Both the position numbers and the translations under genes were made by a program. Below, one piece after another: positions 1 through 26,771 of a DNA stretch of 64,000 nucleotides. The stretch is from Neelides folsomi. Its lineage: Eukaryota; Arthropoda; Collembola; Neelipleona; Neelidae. The notes beneath the pieces are model-generated. The model ran no database searches, had not been told where the DNA came from, and saw only the letters and a list, made by a program, of their open reading frames with translations. The stretch lies in contig JAQGBZ010000055.1 of the NCBI GenBank assembly GCA_034687125.1, positions 184,851-248,850 on the forward strand, in the 5' to 3' direction. Position 1 is the first letter of the stretch. Each line of letters begins with the position of its first letter.

Positions 1-1989
1 TGTGGAAGTCATGGAAGTGAGACGGAGTAATGGGTAAGTATGAGAATAATGGCCATTGGGAATCGGGAAGTGTAATGACAGGGAGGGGAGAATGGACTCA
101 ATTTTATTTATACTTTTTTGAGCCGTGTAAAACCAAAGGGAAATGGAGAGTGTCATAAAAGGTTTATTTTCTTCCGATAATTCCCGCCATCTTCCCTCCA
201 CTTTGACCTCAGTTCGTGGAAAATGAAAGTCTCGTGGAGTTGGAATCATCCAGCACAACCTAACTAACTATTTATATATAGGAAGATGTATGTAGGTGGT
301 CAGACGGACGGAGGGCGAAAAAAGGAACGTTGCAAAACGGTCAATAAAAGAGATAAAATTTATTTATTTACAATCGACCCGAGCTCGTTTTATGGCTTTT
401 TGGCTTGTGCGGGTGCGGCGGGTGCTCCTCGTGAAGGGATTTACAAACACGGCCAATTTTTACTGCCTTTCAATAATACATCTCAATTCCTCTCAAATTT
501 CTTACTTCCCGAAACTCCAAAGGCCCTCAACATGTCCACTCCTTATGTATAATGAAAGCGATATTATTTGCATCAAACCTATTTAGCTAAGAGTTCGAGA
601 AGTCATAGGAGTTTGAATATAAGAAGGTTTTCAATAAAACTCATTTGCTACATTTCCTTTTGACCCCAAAACCGTTCCTTAATTTGACAGGGCAGAGAAA
701 CCATAACCATAAACTGAACCGTTTGACTCCTTTTCCTGCCCCTCAAAATCCCCATAAATTGTGGTCCGGAGAGAACAAACAGAAGAAGACAAAAGGAGTT
801 TCTATTAATATTCCCCATTTTCTTCATGCATTGGCCGTGTCTTGTGCGAGGAATTAAGAAGTACAAATACCTTTGAGTTCTAACTGTTCACACTCCTACA
901 AATCCAATACAATTGACAATGAATGATACGAGATGATAATACAACAGAGGGACATGGACTTCCTTTTATTTCCAATTAGCTACGTCGCTCCCTTTCAATT
1001 CCCTCATGGATGAACACTTCAGGTTAACTTTGATGAATTTAATATGAAGTTTATGTATTTATAATGCTTACATACCTTCCGATACATAAATATAAAAGAC
1101 ATATTTATTGGCATTTTAGGGTAGGAACGTGAGAAGAGACAAACTATGACATCCCAAACCAATACAAGATATGAATCACAGATGTAAGATATGGAAATAT
1201 CTGATACAAAAGTGATGTAAAAGTCATTCAACTGATATGAAAGTGATGGTTGAAGGAGATTGAGGAAAGAGATATTTTATATTTATGCGTAAACCTCAAC
1301 CTGAAATTGCCTTTATCGATTCATTCCTTGTCATGTCAGATGTCATTTGGAATTGAGAACGTCGATGAGAGTGAGGATTTCTCCTGATGGTTCTTATCAA
1401 AACTCCTAATACTGACTGACTGGCTGAGCCTACAAATTCTAATAAAATAAACTTACAAATAGCACCCATTCTCATACTAGCCATTTTGCATGAGAAAAGA
1501 GAAAATTGATATACCATACAGGCTTATTGTTAGATAAATCTGGATAAATTAAAAAGTGATTTACTTAAAAATTACAAAACAGCATTACATTCTTCGTCGA
1601 CTTTGTATTTAATTTTCTTAGATTTTACTTCTTATTCATTGTCAGGATCCATAATTCCAGTGGAAAAGTGGAAAAAAATTAATCAATAAAAATAATTTGA
1701 GAAAATGAGAAAATGATTTTCTCTTCGGAGCTTTGTCTGTCTTCATTGCAAGGCCGCTGGGAAAGGAATGGGGAAAGTGAAAGTCGGTTAGTTCAAATCC
1801 ACCGACGGCTCCATCTGCCAGATCTTTGGGACTTCAATTCCTCTTCACGTCCTACGAAGTTCAATTTGGCTTTCCAGCGTCAAAGCGGTTTGAGATTTTT
1901 CCTATTAATTTACATTGTTCGACATTTAAAGGACGTCAGATTTAACTACGATTTGAGGCTCGCTCAGTGCGAGGGCTAAAAGCTTCATT
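1..1989. other. 5' flank without a confident gene
   Basis: This stretch is AT-rich and has only short open frames with no recognisable domain. One possible terminal exon of a minus-strand gene lies at about 368-440 and is listed as a weak finding. The last few hundred bases before 1990 presumably hold the promoter and 5' leader of the SmD1 gene. Confidence 0.5.
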
Positions 1990-20062: not shown

Positions 20063-20097
20063 GGTAGGCTGATTCGAGGAAAGCGACTCCATTTGGT

Positions 20098-20106
20098 TGA
20101 TTGGCT
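20098..20106 (-). promoter_or_regulatory. CCAAT box in front of NF-YC
   Basis: TGATTGGCT on the plus strand is AGCCAATCA on the minus strand, a full match to the NF-Y binding consensus (RRCCAATSR type). It lies 62 bp upstream of the NF-YC start codon, so the gene for an NF-Y subunit carries a strong NF-Y site in its own promoter. Confidence 0.55.
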
Positions 20107-20167
20107 CTGGCCCGTGCAATCGGAGAATTACTTTACCTCTCGTGTCAAATCAGCGTCTCAGGTCAAC

Positions 20168-21935
20168 ATGGCGGCCTCCCCCGCTCCCTCCGCCCCTTCC
20201 GATGCCTCGGAGGACCTCAAGAACTTCTGGCCCAATGTGACCCAAGAAATCAGGGCCCTTACGGCGGTAAGACAATAACCGTTTTCAACGACTAAAACCC
20301 CTCCCGATGAGTTCCCGAAAACCCATAATCATCCGATGCATCGGTTTTTTAGGCGGACTTGAGGACCCAAGAACTCCCGCTCGCTCGGATTAAGAAGATC
20401 ATGAAGTTGGACGAGGACGTGAAGATGATCTCGGCCGAGGCTCCGGTCTTGTTTGCCAAAGCTGCTGAGGTCTTCATTCACGAACTCACGCTCAGGGCTT
20501 GGATCCATACGGAAGACAACAAGAGAAGAACTCTCCAGGTGTGTGTACATTTTAAACGTTACTTTTATTATGACGCCTTTTATTTTTTGTCAATTTTTTT
20601 CGATTATTTCAAATTTTATCAGTTGGGAATGCAGATTCGGCCTTCATAATATATTTATTTATTAATTTATTTCAGCGGAATGACATTGCAATGGCTATAA
20701 CTAAATACGATCAGTTTGATTTCCTCATCGACATTGTTCCAAGGGACGAATTGAAACCACCGAAAAAAGAAGATGTCAAACCAACCACCGTCCTCGGCCC
20801 AGAGCAGGTTAGTTCCTAAATGATAAATATATAAATAATGAAATTATCGCAATTAAAATTAAATGCAGTTATTAAGGTTAATAATTTAAGATGTCAGTTT
20901 AGTTAAGGGTTATGTTGGCATTAGAGTTGACTAACATTATTGAAGTTAAGTAAAATTAACCAAAAAACGGAGAAGGTTCCCCGATGTAATCCCCATTCTG
21001 TTACGATCTTCGCTCCCACATTGAACTTTGCTATGGCTTACGCCGCCCACCCTTCCGGCTCACCCGGTTGGGATCCCAGCCACAGGGAAGTGTCAGGCGA
21101 CGTGAAGAGGCTGAACTACCCCCTTGACATTTCTGCCCTTTGCCCGGGGACTTTCCCCAGCCTTTGCAGGCCGACGGTGGAACACGGAGGACCCTCACAC
21201 TAAATTCCTATATTCTACCTTTTGTTTATATAATACACCCTCGACCCTTAAACATTTTTATACACGACTTTCACCTGCAATTGAGTAATCCGCCCTAACC
21301 ATTCATTAACTTTTAATTATATTTACACTCCACTAATCCTCCTGCATAGTTCTATTGGATTTTGCATGAAAAAATTAAATTTCCAATTTCCAATTTTTAC
21401 GATTTTTGAAAAATTCCTCATAATAGAGCTAAAAATATTAAAAGTCGTTATTTAATATTTAATTAATTAGATTATTAATATACATTTTTTAATTGTTTTT
21501 CAGGTGCAATATTATCTTCATTTGGCCCAACAACACCAAGCTGCTCTTCAACAGGCCACGACGAACAATAGTGTCCAAATCGTTCAAACCCCTTCTGGCA
21601 TGCAGACGATTCAGCTCGTCCAATCTCAACCTCAGCCCCAGACTGTCCTCATCCCCCCTACAAAGGTCGACGGCCAACAACAGCAGATCGTCCAGGGTCA
21701 GCAAGTTCTCCAACTAGGGCAATTTCAAACTGGCGGTCTTCAGCTTGTCCAGCAAGTTGTTGGACCCAATGGAGAGATCCAGTCAATTCCCATCCAACTC
21801 TCACCCGCCCAGCTCCAGATGTTGAGGATGCAGCTCCAAGGACCGACCCAACAACAACAACCGATCATCATCCAAACCTCACCGATCCAACAACAAGGCA
21901 CCCCCGCCCCTTCGGCTGAAGTTCTCAACTCCTGA
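20168..21935 (+). CDS. NFYC: Nuclear transcription factor Y subunit gamma
   Basis: NF-YC pairs with NF-YB through a histone fold, and the dimer recruits NF-YA to bind CCAAT boxes. Four exons, all joined in phase 0, give 282 residues: 20168-20266, 20353-20538, 20676-20807 and 21504-21935. The conserved core runs from about residue 33 to 130 and includes [54 protein letters not shown] and [16 protein letters not shown], almost identical to the human protein. The C-terminus is the expected Gln-rich activation domain ([12 protein letters not shown] onward). Intron 3 is about 700 bp and carries an RNA gene on the opposite strand. AATAAA is at 21977-21982. Confidence 0.97.
20962..20967 (-). terminator. 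RNA polymerase III T-run terminator
   Basis: A run of six T residues on the minus strand (AAAAAA on the plus strand) follows directly after the 3' arm of the terminal helix of the intronic RNA gene. This is the standard Pol III termination signal. Confidence 0.7.
20962..21200 (-). ncRNA. RMRP: RNase MRP RNA (or RNase P RNA), intronic and antisense to NF-YC
   Basis: A GC-rich block of about 235 bp sits in the AT-rich third intron of NF-YC, on the opposite strand. Read on the minus strand it contains GGGGAAAGTCCCCGG (21158-21144), identical to the CR-I/P4 block of human RMRP as I recall it, followed by GGGCAGAAA. Near the 3' end is ACAGAATGGGGATTA, resembling CR-V. Its GGGGAUU (20994-20988) can pair with AGUCCCC (21152-21146) to form P4. 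The ends (21196-21185 with 20983-20972) form a 12-position helix with 11 pairs, as expected of P1. A TATA-like box lies about 25 bp upstream and a T6 run follows, fitting a type 3 Pol III gene. Length suits MRP (human 268 nt). RNase P RNA is the main alternative. It would act in rRNA processing. Confidence 0.75.
21225..21232 (-). promoter_or_regulatory. TATA box of the intronic Pol III gene
   Basis: TATATAAA on the minus strand lies about 25-30 bp upstream of the proposed 5' end (about 21200) of the MRP/P-type RNA. This is the spacing used by external Pol III promoters of the U6/MRP class. A proximal sequence element is expected about 30 bp further upstream, but I cannot identify it by eye. 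Confidence 0.55.
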
Positions 21936-22500: not shown

Positions 22501-25500
22501 ATGTCGAACCTAAATTATGAACTTGAAACTCCCTTTCTGTCACTCCCATCGGAGGTAAGATAAATAGCCAATTACGTTTTTATTATAATAACATAAATAT
22601 TTATTGTCGAATTACGTCAAAAGTCAGAAGTTATTAATTGCATATTAATAATGGATCATTTAATAACTTTAAATTATACCAATTAATGAAATTAATATTT
22701 TATTGTTAGATTTGGGAAATGATTCTTGAATACGTTGACCAAAACGATCGCATTAAACATCGATTAGTTTGTAAAAAGTGGAAAGATCTCATCGACACCC
22801 ATTCGACTTTCAGGTAATATTTTTTCCAATCCAAATGAGTAAAACTATTTATTTTTATAGAATATTATTTATTTATTACATAGCAGAAGTAATTAACAAA
22901 TAAGTACTTTTTGAGTACTTCCTTGATTAATTTATTATTATTTTAACCAGACAATTTTTAAATTAAAAAGGCTTTAAACTACAATAATTTTGCTAAATTT
23001 CTTTAAATTTTCTATTTTAGAATTTCACTTCGTGAAGAAATGAATCATTTAGAGCGGATAGGAAATCTCCGAATTCGCTCTTTGGAGCTCATTGGTCTCA
23101 AAACTCCCAAAAATCTCACACTTCGCCACCCCGGACTTTTACGTCAATTGACAGTTGGATCATATACGTATTGGAAAGCTCTCAGCCCACTCCTCGGAAA
23201 GAACATCGAAGAACTCGCCATTTTCGCAACCCTCAAAAGTGACAAATCCCTTGCCATAGACGACTCCTCCACAGACGAAGACATCAATGAAAGTTTAAAA
23301 GGAAGCCTATCAAATCTAAAGCACATTAATTTGGGTTTCCATTTCTTCGGAGATCGGGGTCCCAAAGACGAGAGCACATCATTTCAAAGGCTGATTGGAA
23401 ATCCCATTGTCACTTTTCCGGCCGTTTCGTCTCTCACCGTCTCCTTTACTTTATCCGAGACAGAATGGATTTTATTTTTGGCCTTCCTCAAGAGGCACAA
23501 TGGGACTTTACGAAGGCTGAATCTCAATTCTCCGTGCTTTGGAACTACGACGCAAGTTTTGGAGGATCCGTGTCTTACCCTCAAATCCCTCACGGTCGCT
23601 TCTTTAGGAGGAAGTTGCAAAGGGTGCAAAAGAGAGGTAATTTGAATTCATTTTTATTAACCCTTTTCATCTCACTCATCATTCAGAGAATCAGAGATTG
23701 AGAAATGGAGATAATCAGGAGCTTATTCTTTTTATGATTCCCAAATGCACCGTTAAGCTTCTTCAAATATCAATTGAGGTTATCCTTATTATAATCTTCA
23801 AGTGTCTTTATTCTCTTTATAGCCATACACCCATACCTAATAATAACAAGTTCATTTAGGGTCAATGGTCAATATTGTTTACTAGCATCATCATTTCTTC
23901 ATCTACATAGAATATCTCCTTCATCTCATTTAACTATTATGTTAGCTCTATTTTAATATACAAAACATACTTCCTTGAAATCGTATTACAAAGAACCTTT
24001 TATTATATTTGAATCTACAGTAAAAATCTCAAACATATTTACTTTATTAATTTTAATGTCCGCACAGAATCATTTTTAGCCATACTGGCACATTAAGAAT
24101 GGTTTAAATAGGGCTTAATTGTATAGGTAAATAATAAATAAATGAATGTTTTGAACTTGCATTTATGAAATTGCATAAGTTGTATTGTTATAAAGTGTAA
24201 AGTGAACTAACATGTCTCTGTGTTGTCTGTGCAGGGTGAGATTCAAAGCATTGAATTCACCTTTGTAAAGGTTTGATGAGCAAAGAAGGAAGGCATAGTT
24301 TTTTGCTAATTGGAAATGAACGGATTTTCTAATTTTTCTACAACATGAGTGAGTTGAGTGCGTAAGTAGAGGTTAAGAGATAAGGAACTTTTACACACAC
24401 ACATCCTCACACATTACACACCTGCACGTTACTATCAGTCTCGTTTAGATACCCCGAGAGTTGTTCCGTATGGTCCTTACTGGTTCTCTATGTTCCTAAC
24501 CCGTTAAAATTGTGGATGTTACGGTTGATGGGCCTGTACCGTATAAAAAGATGGAGCGATGCGAAGAGCACCAAAGGCCATATTATTTTTCTACTGCATA
24601 GAGACCTTAAATCTACATCATCCACATCATCACCTGTGCAGACTTCTGCAGAATTGAGTTGTAGAATCGACTCATCGAGTTATAGAATTGAATTTTAAAG
24701 AATAGTCGTAATAGAGTATTTTATACATAACATCCTACATATGCATAATATAGAATAGAATTGGAAAAGAGTGAATAGACGGGATATTCAAAGTGAATAA
24801 AAGGAATAGGCTTTTATGGGATAGACTTTTTTGTATAATGGGATGATGGTAGGTTGGATGATGGGATCTATACTATAGGATCTATAGACATAAAGGCATG
24901 AAGAATAGAAGTATGGAGATCATTATGGAAATGGAGGTGTTGTGGACTGGAGGTGCTGACTGACTGACTGACTGAATGTGTGAGTTTTTGGTGTGATGAT
25001 GAGTCTCCTAACTCTCCTGAGTGGAGAAGAGAGTGATGATTCACACAAATATTATTATTCATGCAGGGAAATTCCCTTCGTTGTCCATTCTTCTAATGGG
25101 AAATAATCGAGGAATCAATAAAGCCGAGTTCTTTCAATTTGTTTGCTTTGCCTTCACTCACACGAAGTCCTGGGCTTTTTTTTTGATCAATTTCCACGTA
25201 GGTAGGAGGCTTTATTTTTCTTAGAACTCTACAACCTACAACTACGATGCACAACCAACACGACAAAATTATCACTCATTCCATTTATACTAATTTAAGA
25301 ACCTTTCTAGATAGCTCTATTTACTACAACTTGTTTTTTACCATCACATTTTTATGCGTTCATATTATTGATAAGTTGATATTAGATTCAATTGACGGGA
25401 TATTGCATATATTCATTATATTTTCAATAATAAATGAGCTAAATGAATTTGGGTTTGGGGCCTTTGGAAGTATATATTAAATTAATGAGTTTGGAGTCTT

Positions 25501-26771
25501 TGGGTGTATTAATAGGACGAGTGAAGTCTTGAGTGTATTGAAAAATTGAGATCAGATTAAATGACTCTTTTGTGTTTGTATTTTGATTGGTCCTATGAGT
25601 GCGTGTTTTTATATTAGTTCAATTTTTAATATTTTTAAAAGGAGGATGGGGATTATTAGTACAGAGAAGTGGAATGGAAAAGGGGCTCAGGCTTTACTCT
25701 TATACTATGAATATGAATGCTGACGAAGCGGGTATTCTTTAGGGGCATTTGGTTGAGAAATGGGGCATTTCCGGGGACTGGGCTCTTCCCATACCTGTAA
25801 TATTCTCTCCATTCTCTCATTTCGAATCTACAATGTGGCCGTGCTCTTGTAGAGCATTTATGCTTGGCTGGTTGGTTATCGTGAAATGTAGAAAATACTT
25901 GGATGATATACATATATTGAGATATGGTACATATTATATAGCTGGCATCGTAATTGTATTTTGTAGGTTTTGTAGGACAGGGGAGATGGGCGCACATGGG
26001 CTTCTTTGCTGGGTGGTTCAATAAAAGTTGGATGGAAATGTGGGAAGATGAGGAGAGAGGAATTGAAGTGGGAAATTTTAATGGTGTCTTTTGCAGGAAC
26101 TGTGGAATATCCTCTTGACCTCATCCACCGCCCTCGAAGAGGTCGATGTGGAGTACGAGGGGCTCCACTTTGACACGGTCACAACTCTCGTTCAACAGAA
26201 TTCTCGAACATTGGTGAATTTGTCCCTCCGGGCCCTCGCCCTGGACCCGATGCGATGGGAGGATCGGGAGTCGATCGAAGGGGATTTATTTGCCCAAGCC
26301 ACTCGTCTCTCGTCGCTCAATTTGTCAGCTCGCCCTTCAGCCTTTGCCCTCATCCGCCCTACCCTCATCATCCACGCCGTGAACCCGCCGATCCGAGGAG
26401 AAGAATGGTGCGAGAGCGGATTCCGTCGTATTTCCAGTCTCCCCTCCTCCCTCACCCACTTCTCTTTGGCTAACCTCCCGCTGGTTGAAGAGGAAATTGC
26501 GGAACTGCCCGGAACCTGCCCGCGTCTCCGGACGGTCTGTTTCAAGAATGCCCTTCCCAAGACCACGGAGGTCATTGTGAGGCTGCTCGCGGGGCTGGGC
26601 GAGGTGCGGAGGTTGGAAGTGAGCTCTGAATCGATTCCAGAGGGGCCGAGATGGGAGGAAGTGAAGGCGGCCACCGCCCCTGCTTACGACCCTTGCACCC
26701 TCAACTGGGTCTTTTCCTTCGAGCAGAGCGGAGATGGAAGGCGAGCTGGGGAATCCCTTTTGCCATTATGA
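22501..26771 (+). CDS. F-box protein with C-terminal LRR-like region
   Basis: This is probably a substrate receptor of an SCF ubiquitin ligase; the substrate is unknown. Four exons join in phase to 482 residues: 22501-22554, 22710-22813, 23021-23636 and 26097-26771. An F-box covers about residues 13-52 (FLSLPSEIWEMILEYVDQ...HRLVCKKWKDLIDTH). The rest alternates Leu-rich segments with spacing like degenerate leucine-rich repeats (for example LRQLTVGSYTYWKAL, TLRRLNLNSP, LVNLSLRALAL, LSSLNLSARP, LTHFSLANLPL). I do not recognise a named orthologue. The last intron is 2.46 kb, far longer than the others. The last exon is much more GC-rich than the first three, marking a change in base composition that continues into the next gene. 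Confidence 0.82.
23637..26096 (+). other. 2.46-kb last intron of the F-box gene
   Basis: The intron is AT-rich and has no supported gene. It contains an imperfect palindrome at 24235-24261 (GGTGAGATTCAA paired with TTGAATTCACC), a CA-rich patch near 24395-24430 and a short (TGAC)n run at 24957-24975. Open frames such as 25749-26024 lack any recognisable domain. Confidence 0.5.
24957..24975. repeat. (TGAC)n microsatellite
   Basis: Nearly five units of TGAC lie in the long intron of the F-box gene. Confidence 0.8.

Follow-up and report, generated by a model that had tools for sequence, protein, structure and literature searches.

What is encoded by a GC-rich island that lies on the minus strand of an AT-rich intron? 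The question arises in a window of 64,000 nt (the whole stretch of DNA that was analysed), where GC content is 0.58 at positions 20962-21200 versus 0.25 across the remaining intron. An earlier note, made from the letters of the DNA, had proposed that the island encodes the RNA component of RNase MRP, transcribed against an NF-YC host gene. RNase MRP is an essential RNA-cutting enzyme. The two features from which the question starts are as follows.

20808 to 21503, plus strand: NF-YC intron holding the gene, 696 nt, with GT at 20808 and an AG ending at 21503
20962 to 21200, minus strand: RNase MRP RNA gene (RF00030), about 239 nt long (T run included), with inferred ends

Parts of four open frames (20063-20278, 20353-20649, 20574-20819 and 21471-21935) can be joined to give an NF-YC-like protein. 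The joined exons match Pfam CBFD_NFYB_HMF (60.3 bits) and the core histone family (65.5 bits); the name NF-YC, in preference to another family member, is suggested by a reading of the frames. The intron separates the last two parts of NF-YC, with the RNA gene on the opposite strand. A 90-codon open reading frame on the plus strand (20931-21203) covers the gene, and on this ground the locus might be taken for functional coding sequence, as a spurious or an alternative NF-YC exon. However, NF-YC resumes at 21504 where it broke off at 20807, the intron begins with GT and ends with AG, and an end-to-end Rfam match lies on the opposite strand, which makes such an exon wildly improbable. Open frames, splice letters and Pfam thus bear out the antisense placement that the earlier note described, and the GC-rich island and the plus-strand frame that it pointed to are likewise present. 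Elsewhere in the window, long leucine-rich open frames (23007-23645 and 26082-26771, plus strand) may be pieces of a leucine-rich repeat protein, to judge from how they read.

The MRP identity was examined by a scan of the whole window, in which the Rfam family RNase_MRP (RF00030) matches positions 20974-21195 of the minus strand at 74.1 bits (gathering cut-off, 50 bits; E 1.1e-18) and the model is covered end to end, from position 1 to 266 of 266. Comparison with Rfam models, which the earlier note had named as one way to check its proposal, came out in favor of MRP. The locus at 20962-21200 is the sole over-threshold RNase_MRP match within the window, and no second match was found among the scored candidates (24 of 550) of the 75.1-Mb genome (840 contigs). 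RNase_MRP is also the best family of its clan at the locus, one lower-scoring clan match having been dropped. The conserved elements of the RNA are these.

21185 to 21196, minus strand: 5' strand of P1, paired at 11 of 12 positions with 20972-20983
20972 to 20983, minus strand: 3' strand of P1, the partner of 21185-21196
21177 to 21182, minus strand: 5' strand of P2, UUCCAC (Rfam alignment, constrained fold)
21014 to 21019, minus strand: 3' strand of P2, GUGGGA (Rfam alignment, constrained fold)
21144 to 21158, minus strand: CR-I, GGGGAAAGTCCCCGG, with the 5' strand of P4 (Rfam alignment)
20986 to 21001, minus strand: CR-V, ACAGAATGGGGATTAC, with the 3' strand of P4, 7 of 7 positions paired

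CR-I agrees in every letter with the Rfam RNase_MRP consensus (the comparison is with the consensus and not with human RMRP itself), and the P4 pseudoknot is present, GGGGAUU of CR-V pairing at all seven positions with AGUCCCC. Both motifs, a GGGCAGA, the CR-V pairing and the 11-of-12 end helix had been picked out beforehand, and all of them are found. When P1, P2, P3 and P8 are imposed and P4 is blocked, a 3-bp P5 (GGC/GCC) forms unimposed beside P4; P5 is missing from the unconstrained fold, and three pairs are weak evidence. The unconstrained minimum-energy fold has -92.4 kcal/mol versus -81.7 kcal/mol with the family helices imposed, the P4 pseudoknot being unscorable. An end helix of 11 of 12 pairs also appears in 976 of 20000 shuffles, and 30 of 200 dinucleotide shuffles are equally or more stable in folding, so neither end pairing nor folding energy alone is proof. 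Taken from the model match, the S domain and P5, however, the RNA is assigned to MRP, with a predicted catalytic domain that is reduced and partly P-like.

That P-like part raises a rival reading, in which the locus specifies a third RNase P RNA of divergent sequence, or a hybrid of P and MRP that cuts like RNase P. Its source is the CR-IV region, AGUUCAAU, which has the 8-nt layout of RNase P with an A at the sixth position. However, the best clan family is RNase_MRP, P5 adjoins P4, and the locus is absent from the results of a genome search with RNaseP_nuc (RF00009) in which 15 of 3090 candidates were scored. Furthermore, a by-eye comparison with the alignments of the genome's own P RNAs reveals no CR-II/III block like theirs in the MRP RNA, and the genome already has two such P RNAs, the RNaseP_nuc loci L002 and L003.

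L002, 1501 to 1774 (C11:429300-429573), sense strand of a sortilin/VPS10 intron: RNase P RNA (RNaseP_nuc)
L003, 1501 to 1781 (also L025, 4661 to 4941), same strand as an upstream gene that reads as leucine-rich repeat: second RNase P RNA (RNaseP_nuc)

A third P RNA or a hybrid is therefore highly unlikely, and the assignment to MRP is preferred.

Signals of the Pol III type flank the MRP locus.

21252 to 21275, minus strand: PSE-like element, GGTGAAAGTCGTGTATAAAAATGT (U1/U2 weight matrix, 15.3 bits)
21225 to 21232, minus strand: TATA box, TATATAAA, upstream of the inferred start
20962 to 20967, minus strand: T6 run of the Pol III terminator type, from the sequence

A comparison of promoters between single genes by shared words was uninformative, and a weight matrix was used instead. 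The matrix was built, with the MRP gene kept out, on six genes of this genome, three for U1 and three for U2; 6 of the 7 U1/U2 matches were used, the U2 match L010 (77.4 bits) being excluded because its 5' end differs from U2. Within 130 nt upstream of 21200, the top-scoring site has 15.3 bits (leave-one-out scores of the six U1/U2 genes, 8.2-20.4); in the window, 2 of 127954 positions, the MRP site included, reach this value, as do 2 of 500 shuffled versions of the upstream stretch. Scores below 0 were obtained upstream of the two RNase P RNAs and of two U6 matches. From the start of the element to 21200 there are 75 nt, whereas the distance to the 5' end in the U1/U2 genes is 63-66 nt; the MRP element thus sits about 10 nt farther away, with TATATAAA located 19 nt downstream of it. 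These spacings are approximate because the MRP start site is inferred. Together, the U1/U2-type PSE, the TATA box and the T6 run are, judged by their letters, arranged as in a type-3 Pol III gene, and the earlier claim of Pol III-type signals holds.

The U6 matches (L004 and L005; 48 of 8492 candidates scored) were scanned but kept out of the PSE matrix. Both look aberrant and are without a PSE: L004 has 3 nt inserted and lacks a T run, and L005 carries several core substitutions. Consequently, the PSE analysis is left with no positive control for Pol III. The assembly may lack a normal U6 gene, or one may sit among the unscored candidates.

In these respects the gene resembles the RF00030 genes of insects, with which it shares CR-I, CR-V/P4, P1, P2, P5 and the P8 arm as well as a PSE-like element, a TATA box and a T run. 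A survey of insects reports Pol III signals at the MRP RNA genes of all 26 species examined, and describes the RNase P RNA genes of insects and crustaceans as lacking such signals and lying in host genes, with one poorly annotated exception (PMC4287351). The present genome matches this pattern of P versus MRP genes in part. Its P RNAs differ from the MRP RNA in that each has an S domain of its own and no PSE of the U1/U2 type, which is absent from the 130 nt upstream of L002 and likewise for L003; the L003 RNA lies about 550 nt past the apparent last exon of a leucine-rich repeat gene (identified by reading), on the same strand. Together with a ranking of protein chains matched by arginine kinase exons, this pattern suggests a pancrustacean: below two two-domain enzymes at the head of the list, chains taken to be crustacean rank above those taken to be from Limulus, which is a weak hint of the clade. 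The antisense intron position has a counterpart in the centipede Strigamia maritima, whose gene is also described there as intronic, with Pol III signals and opposite to its host, but which specifies the RNA of RNase P and not of MRP (PMC4287351).

Thus, with high confidence, the locus is best explained as the gene for the MRP RNA of an animal with a small genome, probably a pancrustacean arthropod; Pol III would transcribe the gene against NF-YC, and its product would take part in cutting pre-rRNA. In the proposed pathway, the U1/U2-type PSE and the TATA box would recruit Pol III, which would read the gene against NF-YC and stop at the T6 run. The RNA would then fold into P1, P2, the CR-I/CR-V pseudoknot of P4, an MRP-type P5 and a P8 arm, and would presumably assemble with Pop1, Rpp29 and perhaps NEPRO into an enzyme that cleaves pre-rRNA. 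That an animal should have an MRP RNA gene bearing Pol III signals is nothing out of the ordinary; it is the structural departures that deserve attention. These are a truncated P3, a P8 loop that is not GARAR and a P-like CR-IV, all of them missed by the earlier note.

21159 to 21172, minus strand: truncated P3, GGCCU-GCAA-AGGCU, 5 bp (Rfam alignment, folds)
21126 to 21137, minus strand: P8 hairpin, GGCA-GAAA-UGUC (Rfam alignment, fold; imposed in the constrained fold)
21020 to 21027, minus strand: CR-IV, AGUUCAAU, 8 nt, RNase P-like, with two letters inserted versus the MRP model

RNase P and RNase MRP share subunits that assemble on P3, and elsewhere the distal P3 is the docking site of Rpp20-Rpp25. 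The MRP RNA lacks a full P3 arm and the internal loop to which Rpp20-Rpp25 bind; in its place is a hairpin with a 4-nt loop, of 5 bp in the full fold and of 7 bp (21157-21174) in the Rfam alignment and when folded in isolation, so that 4 letters stand for 33 model positions of distal P3. Since a P3 arm is common to MRP and P in other eukaryotes, it cannot separate the two. Both RNase P RNAs of the genome are cut back alike: 3 and 10 letters stand for 34 and 35 model positions, leaving stubs of 5 bp with a 4-nt loop in L002 and of 6 bp with a 6-nt loop in L003. The reduction is therefore found in three RNAs on three contigs. A search of the literature showed, in the titles and abstract openings of the papers listed, no animal RNase P or MRP without P3; a published precedent for a short P3 may nevertheless exist.

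The P1 helix of the two P RNAs runs about 9 bp past the annotated ends, with 8 of 9 (L002) and 9 of 9 (L003) positions paired. By a hand count between the two, both bases differ in three of the added pairs and a single base in another, and where one copy has an A-A mismatch the other has A-U. The AT-rich surroundings favor A-U pairs in these flanks. The flanks may be under selection, perhaps guarding a precursor without a P3 platform.

The other two departures concern features by which MRP is told from P. In a 2026 study, the GARAR pentaloop and a six-nucleotide CR-IV are reported as conserved from protists to metazoans, and CR-IV has six nucleotides with U at position 6 in human and yeast MRP versus eight with A at position 6 in human and yeast RNase P (PMC13184271). 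GARAR is also reported, in the insect survey, for all 26 of its newly found MRP genes (PMC4287351). Unlike these insect MRP RNAs, the RNA described here is missing the distal P3, has GAAA as its P8 loop, a tetraloop one nucleotide short of GARAR, and has a CR-IV of 8 nt. The third hallmark, the 3-bp P5, is present. The reading of CR-IV as AGUUCAAU depends on P2 being UUCCAC/GUGGGA, and posterior probabilities there are low to moderate. Both RNase P RNAs of the genome have AGUGUAAU as CR-IV, and the MRP RNA therefore resembles its own RF00009 relatives in its truncated P3 and in the 8-nt layout of CR-IV. In the human pentaloop, as given in the 2026 study, bases 1 and 4 pair and base 5 is flipped out (PMC13184271). 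GARAR minus its fifth base is a GNRA-like loop; thus, by analogy, the GAAA of P8 may be the pentaloop core without the flipped-out last nucleotide, and docking of P8 in P4 may be kept.

With P3, the P8 loop and CR-IV all off consensus, the locus might instead be a decaying MRP pseudogene whose working copy is missing from the assembly, which may lack some genes, given that the U6 search turned up no normal gene. However, the locus is the one MRP match found in the genome, the PSE, TATA box, T6, P1, P2, P4 and P5 are all retained, and decay of a single gene does not predict the same P3 reduction in both RNase P RNAs. A pseudogene is thus very unlikely, if marginally less so than a third P RNA or hybrid, and a working MRP gene remains the preferred reading.

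Because P3 is cut in both P and MRP, the simplest cause is a change in the shared proteins or in their binding. In yeast, the Pop6-Pop7 pair sits on P3 of both enzymes and helps to engage Pop1 (PMC7351766). In Drosophila cells, depletion of Rpp20 or Rpp25 is reported to lower the intron-derived RNase P RNA strongly, but not that RNA when a U6 promoter drives its expression (PMC6797745). A stub without distal P3 and its internal loop therefore implies that Pop1 is engaged differently, or that Rpp20-Rpp25 are bound weakly or elsewhere, or are gone.

A genome search with Pfam Rpp20 yielded no candidate, and with the Alba family a single weak piece resembling an exon came up (L006; 17.2 bits versus a cut-off of 25). 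A search of the same kind found exons of Pop1 and Rpp29 over the cut-off. NEPRO is marginal, with 19.8 bits alone and, with neighbours, 26.7 bits versus a cut-off of 24.9 (E 0.022, one in-frame stop); it is described as an MRP-specific subunit in metazoans (PMC12390755). The L006 piece (1417-1662, minus strand; 17.2-18.1 bits versus 25) could be a divergent Rpp25/Alba exon. Its upstream piece alone has no Alba match, and the two together, picked by eye, reach 22.2 bits, below the cut-off of 25; this gain is not independent because the join was chosen to look like Alba. Against PDB, L006 alone retrieves one chain, an unrelated kinase (E 0.027). Rpp30 (PF01876), which is expected in any animal, was not found in the whole-genome search either, perhaps because it is intron-split or divergent, so exon-by-exon searches can miss true genes. 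Loss of Rpp20/Rpp25 is accordingly not claimed, since an equal search also missed Rpp30.

A bolder account, which is conceivable but doubtful, is that distal P3 was shed jointly from P and MRP, that Rpp20-Rpp25 were lost or re-docked, and that this MRP works with a P-type CR-IV and a GNRA P8 loop. If true, supposed hallmarks of MRP would be dispensable, including the U at CR-IV position 6 that is held to anchor the single-stranded substrate. A natural animal with P3 stubs in both RNAs would reveal how the holoenzymes manage without the P3 platform. Likewise, an MRP RNA that departs from two of the three features that the 2026 study reports as conserved (PMC13184271) would provide a test of which of them is truly required.
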